From Erythrobacter sp. SD-21 (GTDB taxonomy: Bacteria > Pseudomonadota > Alphaproteobacteria > Sphingomonadales > Sphingomonadaceae): DNA of 64,000 bases. This document shows, one piece after another, positions 48,243 to 52,941 of the stretch. The notes under the pieces were generated by a model that was not told the origin of the DNA, searched no databases, and saw only the letters and a program-made list of their open reading frames with translations. Each line of letters starts with the position of its first letter. Positions within the stretch are counted from its first letter, which is position 1. A program made the position numbers and the translations under genes. Where the stretch lies: positions 372,001-436,000 of the forward strand of contig NZ_ABCG01000001.1 in NCBI RefSeq assembly GCF_000181515.1. The letters are read 5' to 3'.

Positions 48243-49414
48243 CCACAGCCTCGCGGCTGACCGCGACACAGGAATATTCGCTCGCCTTTGCCGCCGCGGT
48301 GGTGACGGCGAACGCCTATTACATCCACCCGATCATCGGCGATGTCGCGACCCATTTCGGGGTAAGCGAGGCGCGGATCGGACTGGTTCCGGCGTTGAAC
48401 CAGATCGCGCTCGCCGTGGGCATCCTACTGCTGCTGCCGCTGGGTGACCGCTACTCGAACCGCCGCCTGACGATCATGTTCGCCAGCGGGCAGACGCTCT
48501 CGTTGGCCATCATGACACTCGCCCAAAGCTTCGTCGGTTTCACGGCGGGATCGACGCTGCTCGGCTTCTTCACCATCGCGCCCTACCTCCTTCCCGCCTA
48601 TGCCTCGAAGCGGGTCGCGCCGGAGCGGCTCGGCCATGTCACGGCGCTGCTGACCGCCGGAGTAATCCTCGGCATCCTCATCGCGCGGGTCGGTGCCGGT
48701 TGGGTGGCCGAGCATTACGGATGGCGCCTCGTCTACTGGATTGCCTCCGGGCTGATGCTCACCGTCACCCTCGCCCTGCCCCGCCTGATGGAAGGCGGCG
48801 AGCGAGACCGCGGTGGCGAGAGCTACTGGGCGCTCGTCTTCTCGGTCTTCGCCCTGGCGCGCCGCCATCGCGAAGTTCTGCTATCCGGCGCGATCCAGGC
48901 GCTCAATTTCGCGCAATTCATCGCGCTGTGGCTGGCGCTGGCGCTTTATCTGACGGCTCCTCCGCTTGGCTATGGGACGGACGTCGTCGGCTATCTTGCC
49001 GCCATTGCGGCGGTGAGCATTCTGTCCACTCCGCGCCTCGGCCGCTGGGCCGACCGGATTGGCGCCCGGCGCGCGCGGTTCGTCTTCGCCTGCATCCAGC
49101 TGGTGGGCATCGCGCTCTTCTGGCCGCTTGGAGGATCGCTCTGGGGGATAATCGTCCCCCTCGTCATCGTAAACCTCGTCGGCCCCGGGATCGACGTGAC
49201 GGGCCGCATGACATTTCTCTCGCTCGAACCTGATCTCCGGACCCGGCTGACGACGGTCTATATCGTCCTGATGTTCATCGGAGGCGGTATCGGGAGCTTC
49301 GGGGGAACGGCGGTCTACGACGGTTTCGGCTGGGCCGGCGTCTGCATCGCGCTCACGGCCTCTTCGGCGCTGCTGACCGGGCTGTGCTGGGTGGCCGTCA
49401 AGAAAGGAAAGTAG
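48239..49414 (+). CDS. Major facilitator superfamily transporter
   Basis: 391 residues with about 12 hydrophobic segments and typical MFS loops (GDRYSNRR between helices 2 and 3; GRWADRIGARRARF between 8 and 9). It resembles drug/proton-antiporter-type MFS proteins (YgaY/NepI-like). GTG start overlaps the dehalogenase stop by 4 bp (GTGA). The last chromosomal gene before the tRNA-Arg integrative element. Confidence 0.85.
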   Translation: MTTASRLTATQEYSLAFAAAVVTANAYYIHPIIGDVATHFGVSEARIGLVPALNQIALAVGILLLLPLGDRYSNRRLTIMFASGQTLSLAIMTLAQSFVGFTAGSTLLGFFTIAPYLLPAYASKRVAPERLGHVTALLTAGVILGILIARVGAGWVAEHYGWRLVYWIASGLMLTVTLALPRLMEGGERDRGGESYWALVFSVFALARRHREVLLSGAIQALNFAQFIALWLALALYLTAPPLGYGTDVVGYLAAIAAVSILSTPRLGRWADRIGARRARFVFACIQLVGIALFWPLGGSLWGIIVPLVIVNLVGPGIDVTGRMTFLSLEPDLRTRLTTVYIVLMFIGGGIGSFGGTAVYDGFGWAGVCIALTASSALLTGLCWVAVKKGK

Positions 49415-49499
49415 GTGGCGTCCCCGACAGGATTGGCGCCTTCGGCGCCGTCTTCGCTTCGCTGCGACTCGGAACCAGGCACGAGCCTGAATGGGCAAA

Positions 49500-49537
49500 C
49501 CACACGAGGCGGCCCATCGCAGGACAGCCTCGTGTGG
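49500..49537 (-). terminator. Probable original tRNA-Arg terminator, left outside the element
   Basis: Perfect 11-bp arms CCACACGAGGC (49500-49510) and GCCTCGTGTGG (49527-49537). Read on the minus strand, the 5' arm begins with the CCA of the att copy and the 3' arm is followed by TTT. Before the element inserted, this hairpin directly followed the tRNA-Arg gene and would have ended its transcript. Confidence 0.6.
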
Positions 49538-49579
49538 TGCGCCCGACAGGATTCGAACCTGTGGCCCCCAGATTAGGAA
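49535..49579. repeat. Attachment-site repeat, int-distal copy (tRNA-Arg 3' fragment)
   Basis: 45 bp identical to 52865-52909. It equals the 3' part of tRNA-Arg from the anticodon loop through CCA. Matching stops at 49580 (G versus T), after which the cloverleaf cannot form. This is one end of the integrative element. Confidence 0.95.
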
Positions 49580-49640
49580 GCCGACGTGGAGCGGTGGAAT
49601 TCTAAATCCAGCACAAAGACTTGAGGTAACTAGACGAAAA

Positions 49641-49657
49641 AATTCGTGTGAAATTCG
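49641..49657. repeat. 17-bp direct repeat, left copy (putative integrase arm site)
   Basis: AATTCGTGTGAAATTCG, identical to 52739-52755. It lies 61 bp inside the int-distal attachment repeat. Similar flanking bases (GGGGATTA here, TGGAGATTA on the right) extend the likeness. Confidence 0.6.
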
Positions 49658-49721
49658 GGGATTATGGAGGTGCTTGCGGAGGTTTAATGAAGCTAGGGAG
49701 CCAAGCACCTCAGATCTAATC

Positions 49722-51422
49722 TCAGACTTTCCAAACCTGTTCTCTTGCGATTTCAGCGAGCCGTAGAGTGTTTGATCTAAGCAATTTCGGGGTCAATTCT
49801 TCCGCCCCAGCTAGCTGCTCGGGCAATCTGTAGCCGCGCGATTCTAGGATCCGCTTTTTATCTGCGAAACGATTGGAGCTCAGCATGCCATTCGTCTCAC
49901 TGTCGATCAGAATGAGATTCCCAAGCTGTCCTACTTCCTCCTCTGAATAACCTGCACCGATGGCTGCTTGGGGAACAAGGTGCTCGATGGTCAGATCATC
50001 AGTTTCCCCTTGGAATTGATGCCCTTCGTGCTTGGCAAGTTTCAGCAAAATGTACCTAACCAAAGCCTTCTTGGCAGACTTGGTTTTCGTATAAAAAATT
50101 TGCTCGAAACCAGCATCGAACTCCACCGCTGGCACCTCTCTGAAGCGCAGCTTCTCTCTGTGCTCAGCGATAAGTCTTCCAATCTTCGCGCTATCACTCT
50201 GAGCCCGAAAAATATTCTGACCTAGTGATGCATACATACCGGATATACCGCCTGACGAACGAGAGGAGGTCACCGCGTTGAAGGAAAAGTGAAAATACTC
50301 GATATCTCGGATTGCGTCTCGAAGTGTACGATATTTAATATGTCCGTCACGATAGCTGCGGATCAGTGAAAGCAATCCAGGCGTGGGCTGCACGACTTTA
50401 AATATATGCAAAGCGCTCAGTGAGCGAATGACATCCTTCTCTTTCTTTGAATGCCATTGGTATTCAATATCGAATATAGAGCGCCACTGGCCTGCATCGC
50501 TCAATAATCTATTCAAATGCGGCCTTGCATTACTCTCCTTAATGGCGACTTTTGCCTTTTGGAATGTCTTTGCTTTGGTGACGAAGTCGTAACGAGATTG
50601 CCAAGAATGGACAATGAATTGGTCCACATCGAGCTCCATAGGAGCGCTTTCGATCGTCTCATGAATCTCGCGCAGCTTATGGATAGGAGGATCGGTTACA
50701 CCCGTTGGCTTTAGATACTTGGTAAAATGATTACGCAACAAATCGAAAAGCTCGAGGTCTTTCCCGCGCGTATTCAATGTCTCAAAAATTAGATAGGCAT
50801 CATCCTCGTCATCGAGCTGAACCAATATTAGATTCAAATCGAGGATAGTGTCACGCAACTTCGAAAGCCAAGCAATGGAGTCTTCGTTGTTCTGCTCCGG
50901 CGTTTGTTCGACATTGGAAATAAATTCCGCCAGCTTATCGGTTATGTTTCTACGGAATAGACGAAAAGCTTGTTCTATTCTCTCTTCTTCCCGACCAATT
51001 TGGCAGTCGATTTCAGATGGGTCGCTCTTTAAGACCTCTTCTTGAAGGTAGGGATAAGAGGTTTCAGTCTCTAATACATAAACGATTTCGTTATCGCGGT
51101 CGCGTTGCTCCACGTACGATTGGATGCCGTCGGCCAACTGTGGGGCTTCCAGCATTTTGTAAGCCTCTCTGATCGCACAGAGTAGGATTGTGATCGTAGT
51201 TATTCGCTGTTGACCATCGACTACTGCGAGGCTTCCCCTGCCCTTCGTATAAACGACCATAGAACCGATGAAGTAACTGTCACCAATGCTATCAACAACG
51301 TCGCTCCAGAACTCTTGGAGGTGGTCAGATTCCCAGTTGTAAGGTCGCTGCAATCGCGGAATGATGAATGTGTTGCCCTTGAAAAGAGCTTCTACTCGAA
51401 TGTCTTTTGATTCAATTTTCAA
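49722..51422 (-). CDS. DUF262/DUF1524 (GmrSD-like) putative nuclease, element cargo
   Basis: 566 residues. The N-terminal DUF262 domain (ParB/sulfiredoxin-like NTPase or nuclease fold) shows IPRLQRPYNWE (21-31) and the signature DGQQR (69-73); FETLNTRGKDLELFDLL follows around 220. The C-terminal DUF1524 HNH-type domain has IEHLVPQ with H481 and the later N-rich LILIDSETNGMLSSN. This two-domain layout is that of GmrSD and SspE-like enzymes that attack modified phage DNA. TTG start (51422) begins at the family N terminus MKIESKDI; only a weak GGGG site lies 8 nt upstream. Codon use is less GC-biased than flanks. Target unknown. Confidence 0.85.
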   Translation of the reverse strand: MKIESKDIRVEALFKGNTFIIPRLQRPYNWESDHLQEFWSDVVDSIGDSYFIGSMVVYTKGRGSLAVVDGQQRITTITILLCAIREAYKMLEAPQLADGIQSYVEQRDRDNEIVYVLETETSYPYLQEEVLKSDPSEIDCQIGREEERIEQAFRLFRRNITDKLAEFISNVEQTPEQNNEDSIAWLSKLRDTILDLNLILVQLDDEDDAYLIFETLNTRGKDLELFDLLRNHFTKYLKPTGVTDPPIHKLREIHETIESAPMELDVDQFIVHSWQSRYDFVTKAKTFQKAKVAIKESNARPHLNRLLSDAGQWRSIFDIEYQWHSKKEKDVIRSLSALHIFKVVQPTPGLLSLIRSYRDGHIKYRTLRDAIRDIEYFHFSFNAVTSSRSSGGISGMYASLGQNIFRAQSDSAKIGRLIAEHREKLRFREVPAVEFDAGFEQIFYTKTKSAKKALVRYILLKLAKHEGHQFQGETDDLTIEHLVPQAAIGAGYSEEEVGQLGNLILIDSETNGMLSSNRFADKKRILESRGYRLPEQLAGAEELTPKLLRSNTLRLAEIAREQVWKV

Positions 51423-51437
51423 GGTGCTTGCCCCGTT

Positions 51438-51492
51438 CCTCCAACCCAGACTTAATTCCGCTATTATTCAGTGAAATCAAGTAGGTTGGAGG
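51438..51492 (-). promoter_or_regulatory. Inverted repeat in the leader of the DUF262 gene
   Basis: CCTCCAACC (51438-51446) and GGTTGGAGG (51484-51492), 9-bp perfect arms 37 nt apart. The arm nearer the gene contains GGAGG on the coding strand. The repeat could be a protein operator, or an RNA stem masking a ribosome-binding sequence. Confidence 0.4.
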
Positions 51493-51522
51493 ATGCGTCT
51501 GGGGACAGTCTAAGGAAATTCG

Positions 51523-52614
51523 CTACCGACGAGCGCGGCTGCGCGCTTCCATCGCCTTTCGAACGTCGTCGCTGATCACGTGTGCGTAACGCTCAGTTTG
51601 TGAAACATCTGAGTGACCGAGGAGATCTCGAGTTGCGGTTAGATCTTTGCTGGCTCGAAGCAACTCCGTTGCCGCAGTGTGACGCAGATCGTGGATACGC
51701 CGCCAATCCTTTAACCCAGCCCGCTGCACCGCACGTCCCATTTCACTTTTGAAACCCTCATAGGTGATTGGGTATCGTCGGCCTCGGACCTTGCCATTGA
51801 ACGTCCGTTTCGCTCGAAATGTGAAGACGTGCTCACAATCAGATGGTGACTTCCGTAACTCGTTGCGCAACAGGCGCTCCACGTCTTCGGTAATCGGTAT
51901 GAAGCCAAAATCGTTCTCGAATTTGCTCTTCTTGTCGTAGATTATAAGACCCTTCTCGAAGTCGATTTGATCTTTCTTAATGAGCATCGCGTTTGCTCGA
52001 AGCGCAGAGAGTAGCGCGAACTTGACTAGAGGCCGGTAATCTTTGCTGATTGAGATATACAGCCGCGCCTTTTCGTTTCGCGTCAGCCAGCGAACTCGCG
52101 GTCGTGGTACACGCAATTTTAGTTCGCCCCACGGAAAATCGCTCTGGCCCAATGGGCCAACCTCAACTCCCCAGCTCCGAGCACGTTTGTAAATGGGGCG
52201 AAGAGTATCGAGAATGTCCGAGTTCACGGTTCGATTTGCTACTTCTTTGCGTCGGGTAGCCTGGTAACGAAGCAAATCATCGTGTGTGAGGCTACAGATT
52301 GTCCGATCTGATCCTAATCGCTTTGCCAGGCGCTCCAGTCGCGTAAGGAGTTCAGGCGGGCGTGCGATATCCGGACTATGTTCTTCGAAGTACCGGGCAA
52401 AAGCAGAGTCTAAAGTAATTTTCGGCTTAGGACGAATTTTGTGGGGGCCTTGGAGCTCTGCAAAGGCACGAGCCTCTGATGCTACCCGGGTCGCTTCTCG
52501 TAAGTTGGTCTTACCAGTGGACCGTTTGTACCTTATTCCGTCTACATTGAAGTCGTAGACGTAGGTGCGTCCGTTCTTGGGAATATGTAAGCCGAATGGG
52601 GCTTTCTGGTGCAT
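51523..52614 (-). CDS. int: Tyrosine-type site-specific integrase
   Basis: 363 residues. N-terminal arm-binding segment (about 1-55), SAM-like core-binding domain (65-170), catalytic domain with R206 (LLSALRANAM), H308-x-x-R311 (HDLRH), H334 (LLGHSDVSQTERY) and nucleophile Y343, the full active-site set. ATG at 52614 with AGAGGA upstream. Lies about 250 bp from the intact tRNA-Arg, as usual for integrases of tRNA-inserted elements, and is expected to recombine the 45-bp repeats. Confidence 0.93.
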   Translation of the reverse strand: MHQKAPFGLHIPKNGRTYVYDFNVDGIRYKRSTGKTNLREATRVASEARAFAELQGPHKIRPKPKITLDSAFARYFEEHSPDIARPPELLTRLERLAKRLGSDRTICSLTHDDLLRYQATRRKEVANRTVNSDILDTLRPIYKRARSWGVEVGPLGQSDFPWGELKLRVPRPRVRWLTRNEKARLYISISKDYRPLVKFALLSALRANAMLIKKDQIDFEKGLIIYDKKSKFENDFGFIPITEDVERLLRNELRKSPSDCEHVFTFRAKRTFNGKVRGRRYPITYEGFKSEMGRAVQRAGLKDWRRIHDLRHTAATELLRASKDLTATRDLLGHSDVSQTERYAHVISDDVRKAMEARSRARR

Positions 52615-52644
52615 TGCAACATCCTCTCTCGATCAGGGGGAAAC

Positions 52645-52674
52645 TGAGAATGAGAATGTTGAATGTTGAGAATG
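52645..52674. repeat. Three TGAGAATG repeats upstream of int
   Basis: TGAGAATG at 52645-52652, 52651-52658 and 52667-52674, with TTGAATGTTGA between. Short tandem sites directly upstream of int suggest binding sites for the integrase itself or a regulator. Confidence 0.45.
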
Positions 52675-52738
52675 CCCTCTAACCTAGCTTCGTCGAAACC
52701 GCTCCTCAAGAAGAATCACGGACAAAACATAGCAAGAG

Positions 52739-52755
52739 AATTCGTGTGAAATTCG
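52739..52755. repeat. 17-bp direct repeat, right copy (putative integrase arm site)
   Basis: Identical to 49641-49657 (AATTCGTGTGAAATTCG) and 109 bp inside the int-proximal attachment repeat. A partial relative, GAATTTCGCGAG, follows at about 52797-52808. Confidence 0.6.
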
Positions 52756-52846
52756 TGGAGATTAGTGGGCTCTAGAGACGCTAAATGCGCTTAGATGAAT
52801 TTCGCGAGTGGTCTTCAGCTAAATTATCTGGGACCACAATATGTTG

Positions 52847-52862
52847 AAAAACCAAGGTTTTT
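52847..52862 (-). terminator. Element-borne terminator for tRNA-Arg
   Basis: AAAAACC-AA-GGTTTTT palindrome, 7-bp arms, starting 3 bp beyond the tRNA CCA end on the minus strand. It takes the place of the original hairpin now found beyond 49535. Confidence 0.55.
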
Positions 52863-52864
52863 AT

Positions 52865-52909
52865 TGGTGCGCCCGACAGGATTCGAACCTGTGGCCCCCA
52901 GATTAGGAA
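52865..52909. repeat. Attachment-site repeat, int-proximal copy (inside intact tRNA-Arg)
   Basis: 45 bp identical to 49535-49579, running from the tRNA anticodon loop to its CCA end. The repeat starts exactly at the last base of the tRNA, as expected when the element restores the tRNA 3' end on integration. Confidence 0.95.
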
Positions 52910-52941
52910 TCTGGTGCTCTATCCGACTGAGCTACGGGCGC
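52865..52941 (-). tRNA. tRNA-Arg (anticodon CCU)
   Basis: 77 nt, minus strand. Acceptor GCGCCCG pairs with CGGGCGC, discriminator A, CCA encoded. D-arm with AGCTCAGTCGGATAGAGC, anticodon loop TTCCTAA giving CCU (arginine AGG codons), T-arm with GGTTCGAATCC. It is the insertion target of the neighbouring integrative element. Confidence 0.96.

Follow-up and report, generated by a model that had tools for sequence, protein, structure and literature searches.

Islands integrated in tRNA genes are compiled in the Islander database, which, as it is described, accepts them from 2 kb upward and shows peaks of island size at 13.6 kb and 39.9 kb (PMC4383910). Islands with defence cargo are exemplified by the non-autonomous phage-defence islands I23, I44 and I55 of Pseudomonas, which combine an integrase with defence genes, lack transfer genes and have direct repeats at a tRNA/tmRNA end; their description places them at tmRNA, with 14-bp repeats, an encoded AlpA and gene numbers running to at least orf39 (PMC12595487). 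Very small elements with an integrase and optional defence cargo are represented by the PICMI satellites, whose account gives int, alpA and prim as core genes and fis as the site of integration (PMC10803314). Regarding the cargo considered here, the Type IV restriction proteins GmrSD, Eco94GmrSD, BrxU and TgvB carry the DUF262 and DUF1524 domains on one chain, with the motifs of GmrSD as defined in PMC4619093, while SspE and DndI are gated by phosphorothioate (PT), the PT-sensing tyrosine being Y25 in DndI according to the account in PMC11662687.

Within the window (the whole 64-kb stretch of DNA analysed), positions 49535-52909 correspond to an integrated element in tRNA-Arg(CCU), of 3,330 bp from the start of one 45-bp end to the start of the other and with two genes, which is an unusually small instance of an already known kind of mobile defence island. 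It is probably a compact integrative genomic island whose one cargo gene encodes a Type IV restriction nuclease. The features of the locus are the following:

49495-49545, minus strand: strong hairpin beyond the element (MFE -34.1, z -5.3)
49535-49579, no strand assigned: distal 45-bp att copy, a displaced tRNA-Arg 3' fragment (45/45 identical to 52865-52909)
49641-49661, plus strand: left putative arm-type integrase site (20/21 identical to 52739-52759)
49722-51422, minus strand: 566-aa DUF262/DUF1524 (GmrSD-family) protein, TTG start (Pfam GmrSD_N 1.9e-36, GmrSD_C 5e-12)
51423-51522, minus strand: intergenic gap between integrase and nuclease, with a strong hairpin (fold of 51395-51522, first codons included: MFE -41.1, z -4.1)
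51523-52614, minus strand: 363-aa tyrosine integrase with a lambda-Int-like fold (Pfam Phage_integrase 2.7e-20; top fold matches, lambda integrase)
52739-52759, plus strand: right putative arm-type integrase site (20/21 identical to 49641-49661)
52848-52864, minus strand: short AT-rich inverted repeat at the right end of the element (57-nt fold not significant, z 0.28)
52865-52909, no strand assigned: proximal 45-bp att copy, within the intact tRNA gene (repeat match and tRNA call)
52865-52941, minus strand: intact tRNA-Arg(CCU), the integration target, its 3' part restored by the element (ARAGORN, which reports CCT)

The preliminary description of this DNA had proposed an element bounded by perfect 45-bp repeats, one being the 3' part of a tRNA-Arg gene, and this was borne out: the copies are identical at 45 of 45 positions, no other exact direct repeat in the window reaches 24 bp, and the ARAGORN call on the minus strand identifies the right copy as the 3' part of tRNA-Arg. 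As described for the Islander class, the displaced tDNA fragment has the same orientation as the tRNA gene, the integrase gene lies between the two, the tRNA is regenerated and the size exceeds 2 kb; unlike the bulk of that class, the element has only two genes and lies far under both size peaks (PMC4383910). The earlier view that so small an element is uncommon is therefore a matter of degree, given that Islander accepts tRNA islands from 2 kb. The claim that only an integrase and a 566-aa DUF262/DUF1524 protein are enclosed also held, since these are the two long ORFs inside the element in the mechanical ORF list and match Phage_integrase, GmrSD_N and GmrSD_C in Pfam. The remaining mechanical ORFs touching the element do not exceed 91 aa, except for one of 275 aa (48881-49708, minus strand) that is antisense to the flanking MFS gene, crosses the left end of the element and is taken as spurious. 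The segment is indeed AT-richer, with a GC content of 0.466 in the DUF262 gene and 0.525 in the integrase gene versus 0.634-0.665 in three flanking genes, and a GC3 of 0.50-0.54 versus 0.80-0.83. No excision, relaxase/transfer, replication or packaging gene was recognised in the 3.3-kb element from the ORF list and Pfam, and neither element gene matches a relaxase in Pfam; mobility thus probably needs help or is lost, and the present mobility of the element appears doubtful. Compared with I23, I44 and I55 as described in PMC12595487, the element shares the combination of integrase and defence cargo, the lack of recognised transfer genes and the direct repeats at a tRNA end, but it has only two genes and no alpA.

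The comparison of this tRNA site in relatives, suggested in the preliminary description, gave both empty and otherwise occupied sites and supported the notion of an integrated tRNA element. The nearest genome (G152) has an unoccupied, collinear site, with 179 of 200 bases identical and no gap up to the repeat boundary, and no element DNA is present in the 15.5-kb locus. Sites could be taken from 57 of the 59 other genus genomes (omitting G182, in which only other tRNAs matched, and G198, a fragment at a contig start); neither element gene was found at them (tblastn, E 1e-10), and 36 of the 57, where a conserved neighbour lies no more than 300 bp from the tRNA, were counted as empty. At a cut-off of E<=1e-30, no DUF262 relative was present in the other 297 of the 298 family genomes searched. 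Three genus genomes carry other islands at the same tRNA, with different, highly divergent integrases; that of G180 spans 9.1 kb, encodes an integrase, D5/DUF5906, an S78 protease and an HK97 capsid protein, and looks like a satellite. Blastn of the element DNA against plasmids gave two weak matches, each covering 5% and falling within the DUF262 gene of a Phaeobacter plasmid. A 27-bp match to the junction of right end and tRNA, found in one viral contig (L190), was discarded as a sign of a related element and treated as coincidence, because the 14.7-kb stretch contains no homolog of either gene.

The integrase was stated earlier to have its full catalytic residues, and R206, K229, H308, R311, H334 and Y343, which we take to be the catalytic set, are invariant in the 14 aligned sequences. 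Its best fold matches, to lambda integrase, extend over nearly the full length with a TM of 0.55-0.58, yet identity is 16-18% and the rmsd is about 15 A, so that the domains are placed differently. The closest relatives are 30-36% identical, and phage integrases are no more distant than bacterial ones (Rhizobium phage RHph_I3_18, 34% over 94%; Sinorhizobium phage phiLM21, 32% over 97%). A peptide-pattern search of GTDB contigs and IMG/VR confirmed no integrase relative, and the class-level integrase search was run at E<=1e-45, a cut that relatives of 33% identity within the family would themselves fail. An HTH_17 excisionase-like neighbour, missing here, accompanies the integrase at 4 or more of the 14 related-integrase loci (L177, L178, L183 and L187), the scan having covered only the four ORFs that resemble it; the nine proteins chosen by hand at related-integrase loci, and a tenth from L088, stand as examples and yield no tally. 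Two 21-bp repeats located inside both ends are probably the arm sites of the integrase, an arrangement, with the core flanked by arm-type repeats, that fits a lambda-like enzyme, even though no Xis was found. Their identity of 20/21 compares with a best value of 16/21 in 100 mononucleotide shuffles of both end regions, and their 17-bp core occurs twice in the genome, never outside these repeats, in none of the 59 other genus genomes and in no viral contig. Two IHF-like sites with one mismatch, both in the right end, do not stand out from chance, as 5.8% of 500 shuffles do as well. The sequence shows that an element has inserted site-specifically into the 3' part of tRNA-Arg(CCU) and regenerated the tRNA, and that it has a lambda-type integrase, probable arm sites at both ends and one cargo gene.

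The cargo was previously assigned to the GmrSD family, and Pfam, motifs and fold agree on this. The DUF262 motifs QR, DGQQR and FxxxN are all present, as are the GmrD motifs (E/D)HxxPQ (IEHLVPQ at 479-485) and L(G/A)NLxLLxxxN (LGNLILIDSETN at 500-511), whereas the third GmrD motif, NxxFxxKK, retains F519, K522 and K523 but has S516 in place of its first N, a position occupied by N in 19 of the 35 aligned sequences. Residues Q25, R26, D69-R73, F213, N217, E480, H481, N502 and N511 are invariant in all 35, an alignment of this protein with 32 of the 54 GTDB loci and 2 of the 11 viral loci; copies with obvious interrupting stops (L112, L155 and L157) were excluded rather than mended. PADLOC labels the protein Orf5/HEC-06, labels that include candidate systems, placing it in a subfamily of its own within the GmrSD family. 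In the structure model (pLDDT 89.6), the only PDB folds matched at E<=0.001 are those of DndI, SspE and BrxU, with DndI being the closest (TM 0.67) and also giving the best profile match (3.9e-44). However, the position of DndI Y25 is occupied by L24 in this protein, and each of the other 34 homologs in the alignment has F there. DndC (TIGR03183) had no match at E<=1e-3 in the genome, a weak control given that 5 of 14 control genomes matched and none did so above the cut-off, and the BREX gene PglZ was not found either (control above cut-off in 2 of 14). The presence of the GmrSD core motifs, the replacement of Tyr by Leu and the failure to find DndC or PglZ make a modification-dependent (Type IV) nuclease the best reading, and the protein is probably an NTP-regulated His-Me nuclease. 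Since the host carries one C5-cytosine methylase, a nuclease cutting all 5mC would endanger it, so that either the target must be narrower or the methylase inactive.

Homologs of the nuclease were found in three further compact, tRNA-bounded islands, two of which show visible, different integrases. That of Litoreibacter albidus (L117), at tRNA-Cys, has a nuclease 60% identical, a 44-bp repeat, a size of 5.9 kb and a different integrase; in L135 the corresponding values are 35%, 19 bp and 5.9 kb, and in L123, 38%, 23 bp and 8.2 kb. That one clade of nuclease turns up in tRNA islands whose integrases differ suggests that it has been captured repeatedly. The idea of a vehicle, or a site, that swaps defence genes is supported only indirectly, by the three genus genomes in which islands with other integrases occupy this tRNA and by the cargo clade in three other tRNA-bounded islands. 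Relatives at 36-38% identity occur in the wider order, in Novosphingobium, Sphingobium and Sphingomonas (L128, L129 and L143), and DUF262 homologs are present in viral contigs (11 viral loci, at least one of them duplicated, as L165 appears to be the same DNA as GTDB locus L111). A tyrosine-integrase-like ORF lies within the fetched flanks of only 7 of the 54 GTDB homolog loci and none was seen at the other 47; the pairing of nuclease and integrase is thus not a family rule. Neighbour ORFs were collected at 56 of 65 homolog loci (106 listed, 104 aligned and scanned), and the tallies, for which the ORFs were called crudely, show every Pfam family at most three times and every PADLOC family in at most two of the 104 nearest neighbours.

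The inner 21-bp repeats, the hairpin at 49495-49545 and the intergenic hairpin are additions to the preliminary description. The sequence of 49495-49545 abuts the tRNA in the nearest relative, and the hairpin is most simply the original terminator of the tRNA, displaced by the element; the inverted repeat at 52848-52864 is a possible, though weak, substitute. The intergenic hairpin pairs the GGAGG that precedes the nuclease start. It does not appear to be a family feature (z<=-3 in only 2 of 33 homolog leaders, L114 and L155, with 40 shuffles each), and its identification as an integron attC was rejected, as it departs from the attC consensus by a single base on either side and no cassette array is present.

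Alternative accounts of the element concern mostly its origin and its dependence on others. The element might derive from something larger (a prophage, a satellite or a conjugative element) that lost all but its end genes and cargo and is now stuck, a tentative reading but one that draws on the failure to recognise any excisionase, relaxase, replication or packaging ORF, on the excisionase-like neighbours of related integrases, on the closeness of phage integrases and on the phage-gene-bearing island of G180. However, the two genes are intact, neither the ends nor the arm repeats are missing, and no additional phage ORF was seen in the 3.3 kb; moreover, the integrase of G180 is only 24% identical over 142 aa, which makes its island no close parent. 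A phage satellite, excised, replicated and packaged by a helper phage, with a nuclease that shields host and helper from competing phages, is unlikely: satellites with very few genes and a defence cargo do exist, as PICMI is described (PMC10803314), a satellite-like island occupies the same tRNA, and both genes have viral relatives, but neither AlpA nor a primase, nor any gene for replication or packaging, was recognised, the arm core does not occur in viral contigs and the integrase peptide patterns matched no relative there. No positive evidence was obtained for the satellite suggested earlier, and PICMI in particular was rejected, because only int is present of its core genes, and the site is tRNA-Arg, not fis.

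Other accounts concern the role of the nuclease. It could serve the element, by excluding rival islands or by stabilising it, rather than defend the host against phages; the co-directional genes, about 100 bp apart, and a hairpin that may hold nuclease synthesis low are compatible with this, yet the 47 of 54 homolog loci without a visible integrase, and the IS or toxin-antitoxin genes that adjoin the gene at four of the five plasmid loci inspected, make it improbable. A PT-sensing effector working with a host DNA-modification system, in the manner of SspE or DndI, would account for the fold and profile matches to DndI, but it is highly improbable in view of the missing tyrosine, of the failure to find DndC in the host genome (the weak control noted above) and of an element without a modification gene; the "SspE-like" label of the preliminary description was consequently abandoned as a statement on PT sensing, and a host Dnd/Ssp partner was judged unlikely. 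A BREX partner, as for BrxU, was discarded because no PglZ was found in the genome.

The preferred reading, a compact island with a Type IV nuclease, can be integrated in the following proposal. Briefly, the integrase would recombine the tRNA with a circular form in which an arm site lies on either side of the att core. Excision would need a directionality factor, and as none was found in the element, this would be supplied by another element or excision would now be very rare; the earlier claim that the element is moved by its own integrase is thus only half supported, the integrase being present but no excision factor recognised. The cargo would act as a modification-dependent restriction nuclease, in which the DUF262 domain may sense modified DNA and NTP hydrolysis gate the DUF1524 His-Me nuclease, which would cut or nick incoming phage DNA bearing a modification. 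The host would be spared because no modification gene travels with the nuclease and host DNA lacks the target mark. The nuclease would probably attack viruses carrying chemically modified DNA. On a wider scale, a single-chain GmrSD-like nuclease clade may, rather speculatively, spread among tRNA sites as the sole, or almost the sole, cargo of tiny islands with varied integrases, near-minimal immune cassettes relying on the excision and transfer functions of neighbours; this 3.3-kb, two-gene element would be the smallest case seen here and the Litoreibacter albidus island a second, independent one.

The element is close to the smallest conceivable mobile immune gene, consisting of a single nuclease together with a single recombinase and the sites that it binds. 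With its att core, probable arm sites and empty target known, and a cargo without a recurrent partner gene, it offers a clean test bed, and, if it is still mobile, the horizontal spread of defence genes would need only an integrase and borrowed functions.

The element is bounded by two identical copies of a 45-bp sequence, one of them within an intact tRNA-Arg, as the preliminary description had stated, and this pair is the only exact direct repeat of at least 24 bp in the window. The features are arranged as follows:

49535-49579, left copy of the 45-bp direct repeat, identical to the right copy
49641-49661 and 52739-52759, candidate arm-site pair, 20/21 identical
49722-51422, minus strand, DUF262/DUF1524 protein (the nuclease) of 566 aa, same direction as the tRNA
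51423-51522, gap separating the two genes, with a strong hairpin whose stem has about 20 bp
51523-52614, minus strand, integrase of 363 aa, same direction as the tRNA
52865-52909, right copy of the 45-bp direct repeat, the 3' part of tRNA-Arg(CCU)
52865-52941, minus strand, intact tRNA-Arg(CCU)

The segment had also been described as visibly AT-richer, and this is borne out by a GC content of 0.466 for the nuclease gene and 0.525 for the integrase gene, against 0.659, 0.665 and 0.634 for three flanking genes (GC3 of 0.504 and 0.538 against 0.832, 0.798 and 0.817). The element is an insertion of foreign composition that regenerated the tRNA and carries two intact genes, with repeats paired at its ends and the core nuclease and NTPase motifs preserved.

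In the nearest relative (G152), which matches the right flank of the element with 90% identity over 1,290 aligned bases, the 200 bp left of the repeat aligns ungapped (179/200 identical) and directly adjoins the tRNA, and no element DNA was found in its 15.5-kb locus. A strong hairpin at 49495-49545 (MFE -34.1, z -5.3) adjoins the tRNA in this empty site; the simplest view is that it is the terminator belonging to the tRNA, from which the insertion has separated it. The interval from the MFS gene to the tRNA holds an intergenic, tRNA-derived stretch of about 120 bp (49416-49534), containing partial tRNA 3' sequence, a spacer and the terminator-like hairpin; a partial tRNA copy of 17-19 bp also lies beyond the tRNA in 12 of the 57 genus loci described below, at most about 130 bp away in 10 of the 12. 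In the closest relative (L041, 13853-13929), the tRNA-Arg(CCU) differs from that of the window on either strand of its acceptor and anticodon stems, as though it had been replaced.

The tRNA-Arg site was retrieved from 57 of the 59 other genus genomes. In 36 sites the tRNA has a conserved neighbour gene no more than 300 bp away; in 11 that gene is at a distance of 0.8-13.8 kb, and in the remaining 10 it fell outside the retrieved stretch (some as short as 4.9 kb). Neither the integrase nor the nuclease gene was found at any of the 57 (tblastn, E 1e-10). Therefore, the search for empty and occupied sites among relatives, proposed in the preliminary description, yielded 36 sites free of this or any other element, and other islands at this tRNA in three genus genomes. 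A scan of the 57 sites for tRNA-Arg repeats of at least 16 bp found them in L070 and L088, both integrase-bearing islands. The former (G180, L070 4819-14003) is a 9.1-kb island flanked by a 49-bp repeat taken from the end of the tRNA. It encodes an integrase, a D5/DUF5906 protein, a prohead protease and an HK97-type capsid protein, and resembles a phage satellite or a small prophage. The latter (in G194) presents an 18-bp repeat, a methylase-like gene and, 12 bp from the tRNA, an integrase-like gene with DUF6538 and a Phage_integrase score of 22.5 bits, under the Pfam cut-off. In a third locus (L087, in G168), 11 bp separate the tRNA from an integrase, and there is a D12 methylase as well. By BLASTP, the window integrase matched that of L070 with 24% identity over 142 aa and that of L087 with 27% over 62 aa, and did not match that of L088; several different, highly divergent integrases therefore occupy tRNA-Arg.

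The window integrase belongs to Pfam Phage_integrase (2.7e-20), and R206, K229, H308, R311, H334 and Y343, which we take to be the catalytic set, are invariant in 14 aligned sequences. The best fold match of its model (pLDDT 87.6) is lambda integrase, with 360-373 alignment columns, TM 0.55-0.58 and rmsd of about 15 A; since this match covers nearly the full length, the N-terminal domain should be included. Lambda-type integrases require arm-type sites on either side of the core. The candidate arm sites are separated from the core copies by 61 and 105 bases, and 100 mononucleotide shuffles of both end regions reached at most 16/21 identities versus the 20/21 observed. Their 17-bp core occurs twice in the genome, both times at these sites, and is absent from all 59 other genus genomes. 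The integrase would act on the 45-bp core, and the 21-bp repeats would be its arm sites.

The closest integrase relatives are 30-36% identical. Apart from the element's own genome, they were found in 8 of 149 family genomes (E<=1e-20) and 7 of 396 order genomes (E<=1e-35), and in none of 385 class genomes at a stricter E<=1e-45. Phage integrases are equally close (Rhizobium phage RHph_I3_18, 34% over 94%; Sinorhizobium phage phiLM21, 32% over 97%), with 375 matching phage records in all. An HTH_17 excisionase-like ORF adjoins the integrase in at least 4 of 14 related-integrase loci (L177, L183, L187, L178), and none was recognised in the element among ORFs of at least 25 aa outside both genes; excision would depend on a factor supplied from elsewhere. 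Regarding these related loci, L174 (11601-13526) encodes a CBASS-type cyclase and a patatin-like phospholipase, beginning about 1.3 kb from its integrase. L178 (7936-10474), an island of 2.5 kb, sits at tRNA-Val; its 44-bp repeat covers the 5' half of the tRNA, and the integrase and HTH_17 ORF are the sole genes recognised. A genome with one relative of the integrase carries a second, shorter one (L182 9626-10393; 36% over residues 160-361) beside tRNA-Asn.

The nuclease matches GmrSD_N (1.9e-36) and GmrSD_C (5e-12) in Pfam, and Orf5 PDLC02699 (483.5 bits) and HEC-06 at the top of the PADLOC matches. According to the GmrSD-defining motifs in PMC4619093, it contains the DUF262 motifs QR (25-26), DGQQR (69-73) and F213 and N217 of FxxxN, and the GmrD motifs IEHLVPQ (479-485) and LGNLILIDSETN (500-511), the third GmrD motif being present without its initial N; all 35 aligned sequences share the key residues. 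The fold matches of its model (pLDDT 89.6) at E<=0.001 are DndI (TM 0.67), SspE (0.30-0.44) and BrxU (0.31), and no others. The DGQQR motif is shared with TgvAB, in which DGQQR substitutions and TgvB H571A or N602A abolished phage protection (PMC11411939). The tyrosine that senses phosphorothioate in DndI (Y25) and SspE (Y30) (PMC11662687) is a leucine in the nuclease and a phenylalanine in the 34 other aligned homologs. In its own genome, DndC gave no match (with a weak control for the DndC model), PglZ was not found, and there is one C5-cytosine methylase, which argues against a nuclease acting on 5mC indiscriminately. As no modification gene accompanies the nuclease, unmodified host DNA must be tolerated, and this favours a predicted Type IV, modification-dependent enzyme. 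It would restrict modified phage DNA, and its target is probably narrow, for example a bulky modification of cytosine in phage DNA. The intergenic hairpin, folded with the first nuclease codons (MFE -41.1, z -4.1), pairs the GGAGG 5' of the nuclease start and may keep translation low; since it is not a family feature, such control is only an idea.

Of the 298 family genomes searched, the 297 others carry no nuclease relative at E<=1e-30. A GTDB contig scan yielded 54 loci, including relatives of 36-38% identity in Novosphingobium, Sphingobium and Sphingomonas (L128, L129, L143), so the nuclease family does occur in related bacteria; the closest (59-61%) are from Rhodobacterales and a Rhodospirillaceae MAG. 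Homologs were also found in 278 plasmid records, 16 phage records and 11 viral-contig loci, of which L165 apparently duplicates L111. The 104 neighbour ORFs from 56 homolog loci matched 145 Pfam families with at most 3 members each, and PADLOC families with at most 2. Given such heterogeneity, the nuclease seems to act on its own, and the settings in which it is found are not all defence islands. Among individual loci, Vibrio coralliilyticus L134 (755-6564) has several 27-67-bp direct repeats to the left and right of the DUF262 homolog, possibly integron cassette sites, and in viral contig L163 (702-4306), a homolog 61-62% identical lies directly 3' of a terminase large subunit-like ORF. The Pfam tally of neighbour ORFs includes one GpA_nuclease member, which it does not name.

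Precedents exist in several papers: tRNA/tmRNA islands that are non-autonomous, lack transfer genes and combine an integrase and direct repeats with defence cargo (PMC12595487), the definition and sizes of tRNA islands (PMC4383910), Sinorhizobium phage-related sequences down to 3.24 kb (PMC11476347) and small satellites with few core genes (PMC10803314). No two-gene integrase-plus-DUF262 island appears in the titles and abstract openings of the literature matches listed. The element therefore joins two kinds already described, and its size is what is notable about it.

A tyrosine-integrase-like ORF is found in the retrieved flanks of only 7 of the 54 GTDB nuclease loci, and a tRNA in 8. In three of these eight, the 3' end of the tRNA recurs as a perfect copy past the DUF262 gene; the other five gave no repeat of this kind:

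L117, Litoreibacter albidus, 44-bp repeat, 5.9 kb, integrase beside tRNA-Cys, nuclease 60% identical, GC about 0.49 versus 0.57 outside
L135, Bosea sp., 19-bp repeat, 5.9 kb, integrase beside tRNA-Met and a serine resolvase, nuclease 35% identical, GC about 0.51 versus 0.68 outside
L123, Bacteroidetes MAG, 23-bp repeat, 8.2 kb, Fic protein, no integrase seen, nuclease 38% identical, GC about 0.39 versus 0.49 outside

The L117 and L135 integrases share with that of the window short local matches alone (7 and 29 aa). The nuclease clade has thus come into compact tRNA islands more than once, and with different integrases.
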